From positions 1-22,558 of IMG/VR virus record IMGVR_UViG_3300028548_003794: a stretch of DNA of 22,558 bases; one strand, 5' to 3'. Shown here piece by piece: positions 657 to 21,134 of this stretch. The position numbers were made by a program, and so were the translations under genes. Position 1 is the stretch's first letter. Each line of letters opens with the position of its first letter. The notes beneath the pieces were generated by a model. The model saw only the letters and a program-made list of their open reading frames with translations. It searched no databases and was not told where the DNA came from. This DNA is from a virus.

Positions 657-719
657 AGTTTATATATATGTATATAACAGATTACTTATTTGGTTTTAAG
701 TAATTTAGTTCTTTGACAA

Positions 720-1204
720 TTTGGAATTTTGAAAGTAGAGAGAGTTATAAGCTCTCTATGGGATTGGCTGAATAATGGATGCCTCGAAAGAAGTCCATAA
801 AGCAATCCACTACAGAATCGTGGTGATTCAATCGATGCTAAATGTTGTGTCGGTTTTCTTTGACAAAAGATGTAGAATGTATTTTCGCAAAAAAAAAGAA
901 GCGATTCTTTGACTTCATTTTGGGTAAGGGTAAAACTGAAATCCCAACTTGTGACAGAATTAACCCAGAGTTAGAGGGGTAATGTAATCACATAGGAGTT
1001 GTATCCACTCGGACGATTATTAACTATAATTGAAGAGCACTATCATAACCGATAGATGTGAGGTATGGAGTAAACAAATCTAACACGAAAATTATAGGTA
1101 ATCGCAAATCCTATATCCCCATTATAATTCCAAAGATTTTAAAAGCCCCAGCGATTTTTAGTTTCCACCTTTATATAGACTTAAAAATACAATGGGGCTT
1201 TTTT
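720..1204 (+). ncRNA. Putative large structured noncoding RNA of unknown class
   Basis: About 480 bases with no ORF, less A/T-biased than the flanking spacers and ending in an intrinsic terminator. TTTGGAATT (720-728) pairs with AATTCCAAA (1126-1134), which could close the whole domain. Local helices include TAGAGAG 736-742 with 752-758; GGATTG 761-766 with 803-808, enclosing ATGGAT 775-780 with 793-798; GAATC 815-819 with 825-829; TTGGG 920-924 with 943-947; CTATAATT 1024-1031 with 1090-1097, enclosing CTATC 1040-1044 with 1051-1055; and TATAGG 1093-1098 with 1110-1115. The last helix competes with 1024-1031/1090-1097, so two folds are possible. A 7-bp hairpin at 682-688/698-704 lies just upstream. 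The promoter is uncertain: TATATAAC near 671-678 would include the closing stem, whereas TTGACA at 713-718 with a poor -10 at 736 would start inside it. I found no tRNA, tmRNA, RNase P, intron or riboswitch signature. Confidence 0.6.
1141..1204 (+). terminator. Intrinsic terminator ending the RNA region
   Basis: AAAAGCCCCA (1141-1150) pairs perfectly with TGGGGCTTTT (1193-1202), and the T run continues to 1204. Inside, ATTTTTAGT can pair with ACTTAAAAAT with one bulge, giving a long two-part hairpin. It lies just after the proposed closing stem of the RNA (ends 1134) and 115 bases before gp32, so it should end the RNA transcript rather than a protein mRNA. Confidence 0.8.
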
Positions 1205-11105: not shown

Positions 11106-11133
11106 GCAACACACCTGGATAAAAATGTGTTGT
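11106..11133 (+). other. Hairpin between nrdJ and the TonB-dependent receptor gene
   Basis: GCAACACA (11106-11113) pairs with TGTGTTGT (11126-11133), 8 bp including one G-T, around a 12-base loop. There is no T run after it. It lies 16 bases after the nrdJ stop and before the receptor's strong AAGGAGA site (11144-11150). It may set differential expression of the two genes by RNA processing or attenuation. Confidence 0.45.
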
Positions 11134-11156
11134 CAACAAAAATAAGGAGAATGATT

Positions 11157-13898
11157 ATGAATTATCGTAATCTTTTAGCATCACTATTGTTAATGTGTGG
11201 ATTGTTTGCTCAATCTATTCACGGAACAATTGTTGATGTGAACTCAAAGCCCTTGAATGGAGCAAATGTTGTTGTTGTTGGAACTAACTTAGGTGGAATA
11301 TCAGATGAAAGCGGTACATTTCACATTGATTTAAGTTCTGGAACATATGACATAACAGTTTCTTTCATAGGGTATTCATCAATGACTAAATCAGTTGTTG
11401 TTGGTGAGAAAATGTCTACATTGGAATTTGTCTTAGAACAAAACTTTGTAGTCCTTTCAGATGTTGAGGTATTAGCTTCTAGAGCATCTCAACAAACACC
11501 GGTAGCCTTCACTAATGTTTCAAAAGAAGATTTGGAATTAAGACTTGGTTCACAAGACCTTCCAATGATTCTTAACACAACACCAAGTGTTTACGCTACA
11601 CAACAAGGTGGTGGTGCGGGTGATGCTCGTATCAACATTCGTGGTTTTAATCAAAGAAACATCGCAGTAATGATAAACGGAGTACCACAAAACGATATGG
11701 AAAATGGTTGGGTATACTGGTCTAATTGGGACGGAGTTGGAGACACAGCTGCTTCAATACAAGTTCAAAGAGGACTATCAGCAGTAAACTTAGCAACGCC
11801 ATCAATCGGTGGAACAATGAATGTCTTAACTGACCCAACTGCCTTTGAAAAAGGTGGTAAGTTCAAACAAGAAGCAGGAGAAGGTGGTTTTCTTAAAACT
11901 ATGTTCAACTACAATACTGGTCTTATGTTTAATGACAAGTTAGCTTTGAGTGGAACTATTGTTCGTAAAACAGGTGATGGACTTGTTAACGGAACGTGGA
12001 CTGACGCTTGGGCATACAACTTGGGAGCAAGTTTTGCAGTAAGTGACAAACAACGTTTTGAATTATATGCAATTGGTGCACCACAAAGACACGGACAAAA
12101 TCTATACAAGCAAAATATCGCTACTTACTCACAAGAGTTAGCTGGTGATGTTGACGGATACGATACTGACGCTTTCGCAGAAGGTGAAAAGTTCGAAACC
12201 GAAGCAGGTAGATTGTTCAATCAAAATGTCGCACCTATTGACCCATCATATACAGGTGAACAATACTGGTATATGTATGGAGCAAACACAACTAAGAGAT
12301 ATAGTTCAACTTTCTTAAATGAAAGAGAAAACTATTTCCATAAACCATTGGTTAACTTAAACCATTTCCTAGAATTAAATGACAAAACTCGTATGAGTTC
12401 AGTTGTTTATTGGAGTGGTGGTTCAGGTGGTGGAACAGGAACTTACGGAAGTGTATCAAGAATGCCAGCAGTTGAAGGCCAGAAATGGTACGCATCTTCG
12501 CCGTGGACTTGGGATTGGAATGCTGAAATAGCACAAAATTCTGACAATGTGGATGAAAACTTCTCAACTGATGAAAATCGTTCAACAGGAATACTTCGTA
12601 ATTCTATCAATCGTCAAGATACATATGGTTTGATTAGTAAATTAAACTTTATTGTAAATGATGAATTAGAACTACAAATGGGTATTGACTGGAGAGCAGC
12701 AACTATTGAACACGCTAGAGAAGTTCGTGATTTATTAGGTGGTGATTATTATGTTGACTATTCAGACGACAACTTTGAAGAAGGTAAAGTCGTTCGTTTA
12801 GGAGACGAGATAGCATACCACAATGATACAACTGTAGATTGGTTAGGTGGATTTGTTCAAGCAAATTACACTACTGACAAGATGAACATTTATGGAATGG
12901 GTGGACTATCAAGTATAGAATACTCTTACCAAGACCACTTCACAGTGGAAGATGAAGTCATCACAGCAGACCCAATTTCAACATACCAAGTTAAAGGTGG
13001 AGTAATGTATAATGTCAATGATGATTTGAGTGTATTTTTCAATACAGGAATGGTTGAGAAAGCACCTATTATGGACAATGTAATTTACTTTGACGGAACT
13101 GTAGCAACAGACCCAGCAAATGAGAAATTTTTGCATAATGAGTTTGGTGTAAATTACAAGTTCGGTAAACTTGGATTAAATGCAAGTGCTTATAACACAG
13201 ATTGGCAAGATAGAAACTTGACTAAGTCAGTAACGACTGGTCAAGGAGATTCAGGTGATACTGATGTTATCTTCCTAACAGGTGTTAATCAAAAGCATTC
13301 AGGTATAGAACTTGAAACTAACTATATGGTAAATGATATGTTAGATTTAATGTTCGTAGCATCTTTCGGTAATTGGAAATTTGATGGTGACGCCAACGGA
13401 AATTATCAGGAAACTGAATATAATGACGCAGGCCAAGCAATTGGATACCAAACAACTGAATACGCTTACGCACTTGACGGATTGTATGTGGGAGATATGC
13501 CACAAACATCTTATATATTAGGAGTAACTCTTAAACCTATCAAGGATTTGAGTATACAAGCAATACATAAAATGTATGACAAAAACTACTCTGACTGGTC
13601 GCCATCAGCTCGTGAATTTGACGGGACTAATGATGACGCAGACAGAAGTCAAGTTTGGGAAGCACCAAGCTATAACAGACTTGATTTACATATGTCTTAT
13701 AAACTTCCAAAAGTCAAAGACTTGGATATGATGCTAACCGCACATATTTTCAATGTTCTTGATGAAGTTTATGTACAAGACGCAGTCGATAATAGTCAAT
13801 ACAACGGTTTTGGTTCTAAAGTACACGCAGCACACAACGCTGAAGTATTCTTAGGAACACCAAGATACGCAAATATTGGATTATCTATTGGATTCTAA
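11157..13898 (+). CDS. TonB-dependent outer-membrane receptor, Bacteroidota/Marinimicrobia-type architecture
   Basis: A 913-residue full-length receptor. A Sec signal peptide (MNYRNLLASLLLMCGLFAQS) with likely cleavage near LFA/Q comes first. Next is a carboxypeptidase-regulatory-like beta domain (about 21-100: IHGTIVDVNSKPLNGANVVV, FIGYSS). A plug domain (about 110-225) includes RINIRGFNQRNIAVMINGVP and GLSAVNLATPSIGGTMNVLT. A beta barrel rich in aromatic-ended strands runs to the terminal IGLSIGF, with the C-terminal Phe expected for BAM-dependent insertion. It would import a ligand across the outer membrane using host TonB-ExbBD. The substrate is unknown; the neighbour nrdJ makes cobalamin a candidate. 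ATG 11157 is chosen for its spacing from AAGGAGA (11144-11150); ATG 11151 is too close. No frameshift or decay is visible. Confidence 0.95.
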   Translation: MNYRNLLASLLLMCGLFAQSIHGTIVDVNSKPLNGANVVVVGTNLGGISDESGTFHIDLSSGTYDITVSFIGYSSMTKSVVVGEKMSTLEFVLEQNFVVLSDVEVLASRASQQTPVAFTNVSKEDLELRLGSQDLPMILNTTPSVYATQQGGGAGDARINIRGFNQRNIAVMINGVPQNDMENGWVYWSNWDGVGDTAASIQVQRGLSAVNLATPSIGGTMNVLTDPTAFEKGGKFKQEAGEGGFLKTMFNYNTGLMFNDKLALSGTIVRKTGDGLVNGTWTDAWAYNLGASFAVSDKQRFELYAIGAPQRHGQNLYKQNIATYSQELAGDVDGYDTDAFAEGEKFETEAGRLFNQNVAPIDPSYTGEQYWYMYGANTTKRYSSTFLNERENYFHKPLVNLNHFLELNDKTRMSSVVYWSGGSGGGTGTYGSVSRMPAVEGQKWYASSPWTWDWNAEIAQNSDNVDENFSTDENRSTGILRNSINRQDTYGLISKLNFIVNDELELQMGIDWRAATIEHAREVRDLLGGDYYVDYSDDNFEEGKVVRLGDEIAYHNDTTVDWLGGFVQANYTTDKMNIYGMGGLSSIEYSYQDHFTVEDEVITADPISTYQVKGGVMYNVNDDLSVFFNTGMVEKAPIMDNVIYFDGTVATDPANEKFLHNEFGVNYKFGKLGLNASAYNTDWQDRNLTKSVTTGQGDSGDTDVIFLTGVNQKHSGIELETNYMVNDMLDLMFVASFGNWKFDGDANGNYQETEYNDAGQAIGYQTTEYAYALDGLYVGDMPQTSYILGVTLKPIKDLSIQAIHKMYDKNYSDWSPSAREFDGTNDDADRSQVWEAPSYNRLDLHMSYKLPKVKDLDMMLTAHIFNVLDEVYVQDAVDNSQYNGFGSKVHAAHNAEVFLGTPRYANIGLSIGF

Positions 13899-14009: not shown

Positions 14010-16511
14010 TTGTATCAAAATCTATGGTATGATGTTCGTAAGAACAAAATGCATTTGTGGGATGATTTAAAAGGTTATCTACAAATACCATACAGAAAGT
14101 ATGCCTATGTCAAAGATTCATCTGGACAACACATTAGTCTATATGGTGATAAATTGAAGAGAGTTACTTCATTCGATAAAGATGACCCAACACTACACGA
14201 ATCAGATATTCCACCAATGACAAGATTCTTGGTTGACCAATATGGAGATTCAGATGAAGTATCAACAGGACATAGAGTTATGTTCTTTGATATTGAAGTA
14301 GAGGTAACTGAGGGATTCCCTGATGTTCAGAAAGCATACAATCCAATTACATCAATCGCACTTTACGATTGCACAACAGAAAAATATTTTACATATTGTT
14401 TTGACCCACACGAAAGAATTGAAAGTTATAAGAAAGGTAATGAAGAAGTAAAATTTTACAAAACAGAATATGAAATGTTAAACAAGTTTTATCAAAAGTA
14501 TATGGAGATACAGCCAACAATCATTAGTGGTTGGAACTCGGAGTTCTTTGATATTCCTTATCTATATAATAGAGCAGTTAGGGTATTGGGGCATAGTGTG
14601 GCAAAACTACTATCACCAATATCTAAAGTTATTTATTCTGATTACAAAAAGAAACATAATATAGTGGGTGTATCATCATTAGATTATTTACAACTATATA
14701 GACAATTTACATTTACTCAACAATCAAGTTATCGTTTGGACTATATTGGCGAAATTGAAGTCGGTATGAAAAAGGTTTCCTATGAGGGAACTCTTAATGA
14801 TTTATACGACAATGACTTACAGACATTTATAGATTATAATATCCGAGATGTAAAAATCTTGGTTGAATTGGATAGTAAATTAGACTTAATTGAGATTGCT
14901 AGAGGTATTTCACACTTAGGACATACACCTTATGAAGATGTTAATATGTCATCAAGGTGGTTAGAGGGTGCTATATTGGTATATTTAAAAAAGATTGGAG
15001 TGATATCGCCAAATAAACCACCAAGACCAAAGAAATTAAATGATGAGAAGTTCGCAGGAGCTTATGTTCAAGACCCACAATCTGGCAAACACGATTGGGT
15101 TTATGATTTAGATATCACGAGTATGTATCCAAGTGTTATTCGTTCATTAAATGTTTCACCAGAAACTAAAGTCGGTAAGGTTGAGGGTTGGAATCCAGAA
15201 CAATTTATAAAATCAACCAACAAAAAAACTTATTCCCTTATGAATAAACAAGGTAAAGAAGTCGGTAAGATGACTGAAACCGAATTAAAAGATTATTTTG
15301 ATAACGCAAAAGTATCGATAGCATCCAACGGAGTAATGTACAGAACAGATAAACAAGGATTGATTCCAGCACTATTAACAAAGTGGTTCAATGAACGAGT
15401 AGAGATGAGAAAACTTGTTAAAAAATATAATGAACAGGGAGATAAAGCAAAGGAAGAATATTTTGATAGAAGACAATATATTCAGAAAATTATTCTAAAC
15501 TCATTGTATGGTGTATTGGGATTACCAGTATTTAGATTCTATGATTTAGATAATGCAGAAGCCACTACATTAACAGGCCAATCATTGATTAAATTTAGTA
15601 AAAAGATTACAAACCATTTCTACAATAATGAACTCGGAACCAATGAAGACTATGTTATCTATATTGATACAGACTCTATTTTTGCATCAGCAGTTCCATT
15701 GATTAAAAAAAGATTTCCAGACCAAGAATTATCAGAAACAATGATGACACAAAGAATTATGGAAATTTGTCAAGAAGTTCAAGATTATTTAAATACGAGT
15801 TATCATTACTTTGCTAAGAAATTTTGTAATGTAGATGAACACGTGTTTGATATTAAACAAGAGGTAATCGCAAAGACAGGTTTATTCGTAACGAAGAAAC
15901 GATATGGATTACGAATCATTAATGACGCAGGTAGAAAAGTAAATAAGATTCACGTTAAAGGATTGGATACGGTTCGTAGTAATTTTGCAGTCGCTATGAA
16001 AGATTTATTATCAAAAGTATTAGATGATATATTAGCAGATGTTCCAAAGGAAAAGATTGACGAACGAGTATCATTGTTCAAAAGAAATATGCACAATCTA
16101 TCTTATGAGGTAATGGCAAATCCTATCGGAGTAAAAGGTATTGGTAAATATATTTCCAGAGATTCAGAAACATCATTTGCTAAATACAAAAAGGGTGCGC
16201 CAGTCCACGTTAAAGCAGCAATCAATTACAATTCATTGATTGACCATTGGTATGAGGGTAAACGATATGAAAAGATATCCAACGGAACAAAGATAAGGTG
16301 GGTGTATTTGAAAGAGAATTCATTTGGATTTGACGCAATTGCATTCAAAGGACACGAAGACCCACGAGAAATATTAGAATTGATTAAAAACCATATAGAC
16401 CACAACAAAATGTATGAACAAGCTATGAGTAAGAAACTCGGTATGTTTTATAAAGCAATGCATTGGGGTGGTGTAGAAGATAAGACAACATCAATGAATA
16501 GGTTTTTTTAA
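14010..16511 (+). CDS. 43: Family B DNA polymerase with proofreading exonuclease, T4 gp43-like
   Basis: An 833-residue replicative polymerase. Exonuclease motifs are FFDIEVE (D94, E96), GWNSEFFDIPY (N176, D181) and DYNIRDV (Y276, D280), all with intact catalytic acids. Polymerase motif A is DITSMYPS (about 369-376), motif B ILNSLYG (about 495-501) and motif C YIDTDS (about 551-556); KKRYGLR follows. The C-terminus TSMNRFF resembles a sliding-clamp-binding peptide and would dock on the gp45 encoded nearby. The start is TTG 14010, seven bases after AAAGGAG; residues YQNLWYDVRKNKMHLWDD fit the T4-type N-terminus, so a later ATG is unlikely. T4 gp43 is 898 residues, so this one is slightly compact. 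No intein or intron interrupts it. Its TAA overlaps the next ATG by one base. Confidence 0.96.
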   Translation: MYQNLWYDVRKNKMHLWDDLKGYLQIPYRKYAYVKDSSGQHISLYGDKLKRVTSFDKDDPTLHESDIPPMTRFLVDQYGDSDEVSTGHRVMFFDIEVEVTEGFPDVQKAYNPITSIALYDCTTEKYFTYCFDPHERIESYKKGNEEVKFYKTEYEMLNKFYQKYMEIQPTIISGWNSEFFDIPYLYNRAVRVLGHSVAKLLSPISKVIYSDYKKKHNIVGVSSLDYLQLYRQFTFTQQSSYRLDYIGEIEVGMKKVSYEGTLNDLYDNDLQTFIDYNIRDVKILVELDSKLDLIEIARGISHLGHTPYEDVNMSSRWLEGAILVYLKKIGVISPNKPPRPKKLNDEKFAGAYVQDPQSGKHDWVYDLDITSMYPSVIRSLNVSPETKVGKVEGWNPEQFIKSTNKKTYSLMNKQGKEVGKMTETELKDYFDNAKVSIASNGVMYRTDKQGLIPALLTKWFNERVEMRKLVKKYNEQGDKAKEEYFDRRQYIQKIILNSLYGVLGLPVFRFYDLDNAEATTLTGQSLIKFSKKITNHFYNNELGTNEDYVIYIDTDSIFASAVPLIKKRFPDQELSETMMTQRIMEICQEVQDYLNTSYHYFAKKFCNVDEHVFDIKQEVIAKTGLFVTKKRYGLRIINDAGRKVNKIHVKGLDTVRSNFAVAMKDLLSKVLDDILADVPKEKIDERVSLFKRNMHNLSYEVMANPIGVKGIGKYISRDSETSFAKYKKGAPVHVKAAINYNSLIDHWYEGKRYEKISNGTKIRWVYLKENSFGFDAIAFKGHEDPREILELIKNHIDHNKMYEQAMSKKLGMFYKAMHWGGVEDKTTSMNRFF

Positions 16512-17290
16512 TGAGTGAATATGTAAAATCAGATTCAGTTTACATTGAAGAGATTCCAAGTTCAGTAGCCAAGAAGATGATTATTGAAAAACACTACACT
16601 CACGCATTTAGTATGTGTAGATATGCTTTGGGTATTTATTATGTAGGGGATAAAGACCATAAGTTCTATGATGAGAAAGAAAAGAAACTAATTGGTTGTA
16701 TGACTTATGGATATCCAGTTGGTCGTTCAGCAATTAAGTCTATGATTCCTACATTACAAAAGGAAGAAGTATTAGAATTAACAAGATTATATATAGATGA
16801 CGGATACGGAAAGAACATTGAATCACTATCATTGGGTAAATCATTTAAATGGTTGAAACAAAATGCACCAAAAGTTCAAATGTTAATCAGTTATGCAGAC
16901 CCTGAACAAATGCACTTAGGAGTAATTTATCAGGCAACAAATTGGTTGTATCAAGATTGTCGTGATATACAATTAATGCCAAATTATTCAGTATCGTTAG
17001 GTGAACCACACAAATGGATACATAGTAGGACGGTATTCTCAAAGTGGGGTAGTCATAATGTAGAACATTTAAAAGAACATATAGGACAGACATTTTTTAG
17101 GAAACGAGAAGCACCTAAACACAGATACTTATATTTCTTGGGTTCATCAAGAGAAAACAAAAAGATGAGAACACAATTAAAACACGATTGTAAAGCATAC
17201 CCAAAGAACAAAAAAGAATTCATACCACCAATTGAAAAATATGAAGTGGAGAATATAAATAAAAACAAGTCTATGGAAAAATTTATTTGA
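16511..17290 (+). CDS. Mom-like DNA modification protein (GNAT-fold acyltransferase family)
   Basis: A 259-residue protein whose middle matches the pattern of phage Mu Mom and relatives. LELTRLYIDDGYGKNIESLS (about 88-107) is followed by FKWLKQNAPKVQMLISYADP (about 112-131) and HLGVIYQATNWLY (about 135-147). Mom modifies N6 of adenine in DNA (methylcarbamoylation), protecting phage DNA from many restriction enzymes. The basic C-terminal third (about 195-259) could bind DNA or the replication complex. It starts on the last base of the polymerase stop codon (TAATG), with no good ribosome-binding site of its own, so it is probably translated by coupling to the polymerase. The exact chemistry cannot be read from sequence; another GNAT activity on DNA or nucleotides is possible. 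Confidence 0.82.
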   Translation: MSEYVKSDSVYIEEIPSSVAKKMIIEKHYTHAFSMCRYALGIYYVGDKDHKFYDEKEKKLIGCMTYGYPVGRSAIKSMIPTLQKEEVLELTRLYIDDGYGKNIESLSLGKSFKWLKQNAPKVQMLISYADPEQMHLGVIYQATNWLYQDCRDIQLMPNYSVSLGEPHKWIHSRTVFSKWGSHNVEHLKEHIGQTFFRKREAPKHRYLYFLGSSRENKKMRTQLKHDCKAYPKNKKEFIPPIEKYEVENINKNKSMEKFI

Positions 17291-20639: not shown

Positions 20640-21134
20640 ATGTCAACACAAACAAAAATAGAAAACACACCCGATATACACTTTACATCACCGAAGTCTT
20701 GTTTCGTTGGCAATACTATGATTACACTATCAGACGGAACATATATAAAAATAGAAGATATTAAGATTGGTGATAAGGTTAAATCTTATGATATGGAAAC
20801 AGAAAAATTAAAAAATTCAATAGTAGAGGAAATATGTACACCAATATATGAGAATATAATTGAATATGCATTTCGTGATAATACAAAAATACAATGCACA
20901 GACGACCATCCAATCTATCCCTTCTGGACTAAAAATAAGGGTTGGACTTCTAAATTAGAATTGGGTGATATGGTATTTATGCCAGTAGAAAATAAATTTA
21001 CAGAATTAATTGGTTATACACCAATAAAAACTGATGGGATACAAACTTACAATTTGGGTAAGTTAAACAATAATTACAATTATTTTATAAATAGGATTTT
21101 AGTCCACAATTATCATCTCTTATCGCAGAAATAA
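20640..21134 (+). CDS. Stand-alone intein-like (Hint domain) protein
   Basis: A 164-residue protein that is almost entirely a Hint fold. Block A is CFVGNTMITLSDG (C21 as residue 1), followed by IEDIKIGDKV. Block B is CTDDHP (T87, H90), and the C-terminal block is YFINRILVHN (H156-N157). The +1 residue is Tyr, not Cys/Ser/Thr, so ordinary protein splicing is not expected; this resembles bacterial intein-like domains that cleave or ligate differently. There is no endonuclease domain. The flanks, DIHFTSPKS before C21 and YHLLSQK after N157, would join into something like the SGNH block V (compare RHPGPESHKLYAEQI in the gene at 19252). The start ATG has no good ribosome-binding site, and a stop lies upstream in frame, so it does not fuse to the preceding SGNH-like ORF. 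Confidence 0.83.
   Translation: MSTQTKIENTPDIHFTSPKSCFVGNTMITLSDGTYIKIEDIKIGDKVKSYDMETEKLKNSIVEEICTPIYENIIEYAFRDNTKIQCTDDHPIYPFWTKNKGWTSKLELGDMVFMPVENKFTELIGYTPIKTDGIQTYNLGKLNNNYNYFINRILVHNYHLLSQK
20975..20999 (+). repeat. 25-base direct repeat, copy 2
   Basis: This copy matches 20416-20440 at 24 of 25 bases and lies 559 bases downstream, inside the Hint domain. Conservation of the reading phase suggests gene conversion, copying or an assembly artefact rather than chance. Confidence 0.85.

Follow-up and report, generated by a model that had tools for sequence, protein, structure and literature searches.

A double-module variant of the manA RNA upstream of gp32 in a T4-like phage fragment

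Introduction

Upstream of the gp32-like gene of a viral DNA fragment lies about half a kilobase of sequence that seems to encode no protein, which raises the question whether a structured RNA is made here, to which class it belongs and whether it serves the gene that follows. The fragment, hereafter called the window, is the whole stretch of 22,558 nt that was analysed (IMG/VR record IMGVR_UViG_3300028548_003794, positions 1–22,558), and comes from a T4-like phage. The region in question, 680–1204, is located between an ORF of 75 amino acids (386–613) and the gene for a gp32-like single-strand DNA-binding protein on the plus strand (1319–2080; PF08804, 50.9 bits; phrog_1192); the PF08804 match confirms the gp32 identity assumed in an earlier sequence-only reading. 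That reading had described the region as a candidate for a large structured RNA that fits none of the standard classes it could recognise and may be another of the large ornate RNAs. GOLLD and ROOL are large ornate structured non-coding RNAs of this kind, some of them from phage DNA (PMC12286853). According to the accessible parts of the respective texts, the manA RNA was described as a cis-regulatory riboswitch candidate of marine phages and cyanophages (Weinberg et al., 2010; PMC2864571), was reported in S-CREM1 (PMC9964418) and was re-curated in Rfam 14.3 (PMC7779021). A double-module manA was not found in the accessible parts of the literature searched, which comprised openly available texts, and a search for literature on cyanophage transcriptomes mentioning manA yielded nothing useful.

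The window contains further genes of note. A TonB-dependent receptor (11127–13898) with a CarboxypepD_reg-like domain (PF13715), a plug (PF07715) and a barrel (PF00593) is encoded within the T4-like replication gene cluster, which is unusual in a phage. A protein of the Mom DNA-modification family (16511–17290; PF25680, 166.7 bits) is encoded directly 3′ of the DNA polymerase gene, and a small Hint/intein-like protein at 20640–21134, for which every Pfam match stays under the curated cut-off. A search for tRNA and tmRNA genes gave none.

Results

A structured, non-coding RNA on the plus strand

Homologues were accessible through a conserved piece of 21 nt, part of the last hairpin of the first of two copies described below, which matches at least 119 stretches of viral DNA; among the matches listed, the second module starts directly 3′ of this piece in every distinct case. 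From 82 distinct full-length sequences, removal of redundancy at 93% left 57, and the double-module arrangement is present in at least about 100 marine viral loci. One pattern match in a cellular genome (L237) does not continue into module 2 and was taken as chance. DNA-level BLAST against named phages retrieved nothing relevant. Judged by its DNA polymerase (44.6% identity), Microcystis phage Mel-JY01 is the nearest named relative, and manA gave no match in it.

Folding energy alone leaves the strand unsettled because both the plus strand (z = −3.4; 1 of 100 shuffles was equally good) and the minus strand (z = −4.2) fold better than shuffled sequence. Within the helices of the homologue alignment, G-U was counted in 254 cells versus 21 for A-C; the RNA is therefore the plus strand, and a minus-strand RNA is ruled out. 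When a structure of 73 pairs was evaluated in 29 homologues, 97.2% of the cells formed standard pairs and two-sided changes were present at 50 of the pairs. The covariation score of these 29 sequences was 0.551, compared to 0.202 for shuffles and about 0.1 for the slid structure, and none of 500 shuffles matched the real alignment on any measure. Pairing in P0, P6 and P9, in the terminator stem and in the 5′ hairpin is understated by column counts, as MAFFT misaligns these helices; P0 was for this reason retested sequence by sequence. Three small ORFs of the region (775–912, 842–982 and 1058–1210) are each open in just one of the 57 sequences, and a coding region is thereby ruled out. As judged from these homologues, the region 680–1204 encodes a real structured, non-coding RNA on the plus strand. 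The half kilobase without a conserved ORF, the large structured phage RNA and the covariation among homologues that had been recommended as a check have thus all been borne out, the covariation being strong.

Two tandem matches to manA

Scanning the window against Rfam at gathering thresholds gave no match, with manA falling short by 2.2 bits (53.0 versus a gathering score of 55.2 bits). In a permissive scan of 310–1320 (E up to 10), manA (RF01745) matches twice in tandem, each match spanning the full model: the first copy at 736–913 (22.3 bits, E = 0.0022) and the second at 920–1119 (53.0 bits, E = 1.7e-12). Among relatives found via gp32 or by sequence pattern, the second copy scores 55–73 bits in close relatives, over the gathering score in many, and the first copy reaches 28–40 bits in the contigs of some. 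GOLLD, ROOL and other large-RNA families gave no match in the Rfam scans, neither at gathering nor at E up to 10. The Rfam search that the sequence-only reading had called for, GOLLD and ROOL included, contradicts its statement that the element belongs to no known class; of its suggestion of another large ornate RNA, the large structured phage RNA stands, and the lack of kinship to a known class does not.

The alignments show the core motifs YGAAUAA, a GUGGUG-type loop and a GGUA...AAUCC hairpin in both modules. The architecture is that of manA, in which a P1 hairpin precedes a P2 stem around a multi-branch core, with P2 closing two cores here. Two modules are found in every distinct homologue; having one module characterises the manA model as well as P-SSM2 and P-SSM4 without being a formal criterion, so that the element was filed as a manA variant. 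It is located upstream of gp32, from which a terminator and another promoter-like region separate it. By its sequence matches, the element is a double-module variant of manA RNA.

Anatomy of the double module

The outermost helix, P0, is formed by TTTGGAATT (720–728) and AATTCCAAA (1126–1134) on the plus strand. The proposed 9-bp pairing of the ends is exact base for base, and own mates pair better than permuted mates in 54 homologues (mean −8.1 versus −6.8 kcal/mol; 0 of 2000 permutations as good, a figure that relatedness of the sequences inflates). Inside P0 follow the P1 hairpin (736–758), in which 96.7% of the cells are paired and two-sided changes occur at 4 of 7 pairs, and the P2 stem, whose strands GGGAU (760–764) and AUCCC (1115–1119), supported by pairing and covariation, enclose both modules. 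P2 is paired in all 57 sequences with two-sided change in 7, the covariation coming from one pair and maybe one or two events, and it is therefore considered as one closing stem common to both modules.

Module 1 (765–947) comprises P3, P3a, P4, P5, P6, P7, P9 and P10, and module 2 (948–1114) P3, P3a, P4, P5, P6, P6a, P7 and P10, all on the plus strand and each defined by its manA match and by covariation. In both, a short P3 leads into a YGAAUAA-type motif, after which come P3a, a P4 domain that contains P5, P6 and P7, and the last hairpin P10, which in module 2 adjoins the 3′ strand of P2. The variable helices are P6 and P9 in module 1 and P6a in module 2. Sequence comparison thus shows that a single P2 stem and, outside it, a single P0 stem surround two adjacent manA cores. 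Competing helices had been proposed near 1024–1115; these are not conserved, with the helix 1024–1031/1090–1097 fully formed in 1 of 57 sequences and P10 (1094–1098/1110–1114) in all 57. A switch between competing helices at 1024–1115 is ruled out by its absence from the other homologues.

The predicted transcription unit

A promoter-like region at 641–676, recognised by its similarity to a consensus, consists of the box GCGTTTTGAG (641–650) and TATATATATGTATATAA (660–676), and a bipartite pattern of this putative phage type recurs upstream of most homologues. The predicted transcript probably begins with a 5′ hairpin, ATTACTTA/TAAGTAAT (681–704), whose place is taken in most homologues by a hairpin of differing sequence. 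The hairpin is followed by an almost invariant unpaired block, AGTTYTTTGAMAA, next to variable positions 696–706; in the window this boxA-like block is AGTTCTTTGACAA (707–719), with 8 of 13 positions invariant in the 57 sequences. The boxA consensus GYTCTTTAANA is gamma-proteobacterial (PMC5725501) and may not be that of the host; GTTCTTTGACA of the window differs from it by one base, and most homologues carry GTTTTTTGAMA, with T where the consensus has C. The block could recruit Nus factors and shield the untranslated RNA from Rho.

The boxA-like block is also found elsewhere in these phages, directly after TATATTAT-type promoter sequences (L230, 491/572; L118, 2900/2981), in these cases as two blocks in tandem about 80 bp apart and followed by other hairpin-rich sequence; they may mark the starts of other untranslated transcripts. 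In four loci (L111, L121, L126 and L134), another conserved segment, GTTAAGTCATCACTGCAAG...GAGACTACTGGAGTCGACTCGTAAG, replaces the phage promoter and the boxA-like block is kept. This segment, closed in L134 by a complementary ACGAGTCGA/TCGACTCGT pair, has no Rfam match at gathering and is perhaps another RNA.

At the 3′ end, an intrinsic terminator, AAGCCCCA/TGGGGCTT with a T-run (1143–1204), is conserved in kind among homologues, and its conserved inner segment CGATTTTTAGTTTCCAC (1152–1168) is common to many of them, also ahead of genes other than gp32. The strong terminator that had been noted is real: a terminator lies 3′ of the element in 50 of 57 homologues, compared to 16 of 201 random places (8%) and 14 of 285 Markov shuffles, and none was detected in the remaining 7. 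In 45 of the 50 it starts 214–228 nt from the landmark, with 17 different arms. The terminator arms pair with the core in runs of similar mean length irrespective of their origin (5′ arm, own 6.86 versus foreign 6.84; 3′ arm, own 7.38 versus foreign 7.44), so that antiterminator pairing of the arms is ruled out. Beyond the terminator, gp32 has its own promoter-like region (1226–1277) with TATGTTTTTAG, GATACTTATTATTG and a 5′ hairpin ATCAAG/CTTGAT, a layout that is alike in most of 40 aligned homologues. The limits 680–1204 originally given for the element coincide with the span from the 5′ hairpin to the terminator, and we infer that they match a complete RNA gene.

Genomic context and cyanophage manA

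The next gene is gp32 in 121 of 139 occurrences, a set that includes loci fetched by gp32. Among the listed loci that were found by pattern, 113 have a usable ORF; in 99 of them this is gp32, with 62% to 100% identity to the gp32 of the window. The remaining loci include one ahead of an HSP20 gene (L097) and others ahead of unnamed genes. Single-module manA of cyanophages follows pstS, the gp23 or gp24 head-protein gene or a ferredoxin gene at some loci, precedes talC or, in P-HM2, gp32 at others, and is also found between regA and purL. A predicted sigma-70-type promoter lies directly ahead of P1 in all 12 cyanophage manA examined, and the following gene is close and not separated by a terminator in some cyanophages (P-SSM2 purL, P-RSM6 talC and P-HM2 gp32). 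At six cyanophage loci (L236, L240, L241, L245, L246 and L247), the −35 box of the manA promoter is overlapped by a terminator-like hairpin and its T-run (e.g., GAGGGTGCTTGACACCCTCTTTTTTT), so that terminator and manA promoter form one cassette there.

Discussion

We favour, from sequence comparison, a free-standing phage ncRNA over a riboswitch of gp32. The element would be a double-module manA RNA of approximately 525 nt with its own promoter, 5′ hairpin and terminator that acts in trans, a reading to which we give somewhat more belief than doubt. The RNA would be transcribed separately from gp32 via its own promoter-like region and would work in trans during infection; each module may fold into a similar binding site, and the RNA might thereby offer two sites to one partner, either a protein or a small molecule. 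This reading is favoured because of the near-fixed terminator distance, the separate promoter-like region of gp32 and the varied neighbours. The promoter-like region and 5′ hairpin of the element and the occurrence of the unit ahead of HSP20 and other genes also count for it, as does the position of cyanophage manA beside unrelated genes and always directly behind a sigma-70-type promoter. Counting against it are the predominance of gp32 downstream, which a cis role would explain, the close genes without a terminator in P-SSM2, P-RSM6 and P-HM2, which resemble the arrangement of a 5′ leader, and the homologues that lack a detected terminator. The broader proposal that the double-module manA is trans-acting and that the whole manA class is a phage RNA gene moving with its own promoter between unrelated positions is put forward tentatively, as plausible and short of probable.

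As an alternative, the element would serve gp32 as a riboswitch-like leader of tandem build. Its two manA aptamers would sense a metabolite cooperatively, like tandem glycine aptamers, and gate the terminator at 1143–1204. Such a function would suit the tandem modules, the terminator just 3′ of the element, the frequent gp32 neighbour and the listing of manA as cis-regulatory and a possible riboswitch in the accessible part of its description (PMC2864571). However, the mutually exclusive pairing of aptamer and terminator expected of an attenuator was not found: terminator and core have no common pairing partners, neither P0 nor P2 reaches into the terminator, the homologues do not share the competing helix of the window, and the fact that own arms pair with the core no better than foreign ones speaks against an attenuator. 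The promoter-like region of gp32 past the terminator and the differing neighbour genes also argue against this leader, which we regard as unlikely. A cis-acting 5′ element, either a 5′-end stabiliser or a put/EAR-like element of processive antitermination whose boxA-like block recruits Nus factors, would agree with manA at the extreme 5′ end of predicted cyanophage transcripts beside varied genes, and with a boxA-like block that adjoins P0 and recurs at other sites in these phages. Since a conserved terminator directly downstream fits antitermination poorly and most homologues deviate from the boxA consensus at its C, we consider such an element quite improbable. The new large ornate class unrelated to known families, which the sequence-only reading had in mind on account of size, multi-branch fold and phage location, and for which the window score under the Rfam gathering threshold could be cited, is refuted by the E-value of manA in the window and by scores above threshold in many relatives, and retains hardly any credibility. 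Still less is left for chance folding or a small coding gene, suggested by the AT-rich DNA and the short ORFs of the window and refuted by the covariation and by the lack of conservation of these ORFs.

The likeness to manA extends from the match of both modules to the full model, with the P1 hairpin and the P2 stem common to both, over the YGAAUAA-type motif, the GUGGUG-type loop, a UAAC/ACC-type loop and the last hairpin GGUA...AAUCC adjoining P2, to the occurrence in marine phages near gp32, HSP20 and nucleotide genes. In contrast to P-SSM4 and P-SSM2, in which the same P2 stem closes one module, two modules are placed here within one P2 and an outer P0; a putative phage-type promoter with a 5′ hairpin stands in place of the sigma-70-type promoter of cyanophage manA, and the double-module form is equipped with a terminator of its own whose inner segment is conserved. 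Tandem glycine riboswitches consist of two similar folded domains in tandem. The element resembles them in this respect by analogy and differs in that no overlap of aptamer and terminator was found; as far as tested, by the lack of an Rfam match, the two are not homologous. With GOLLD and ROOL it shares the nature of a large structured non-coding RNA, whereas no Rfam match connects it to them.

These findings bear on manA, an orphan riboswitch candidate of Weinberg et al. (2010) that occurs in phages of abundant marine hosts. Annotation at the gathering score misses manA members of the double-module kind, and the double-module form with its own terminator, present at this many viral loci, yields a deep alignment. 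This form argues that the manA class need not act on the adjacent gene, and it makes the question whether manA works in cis or in trans directly testable.
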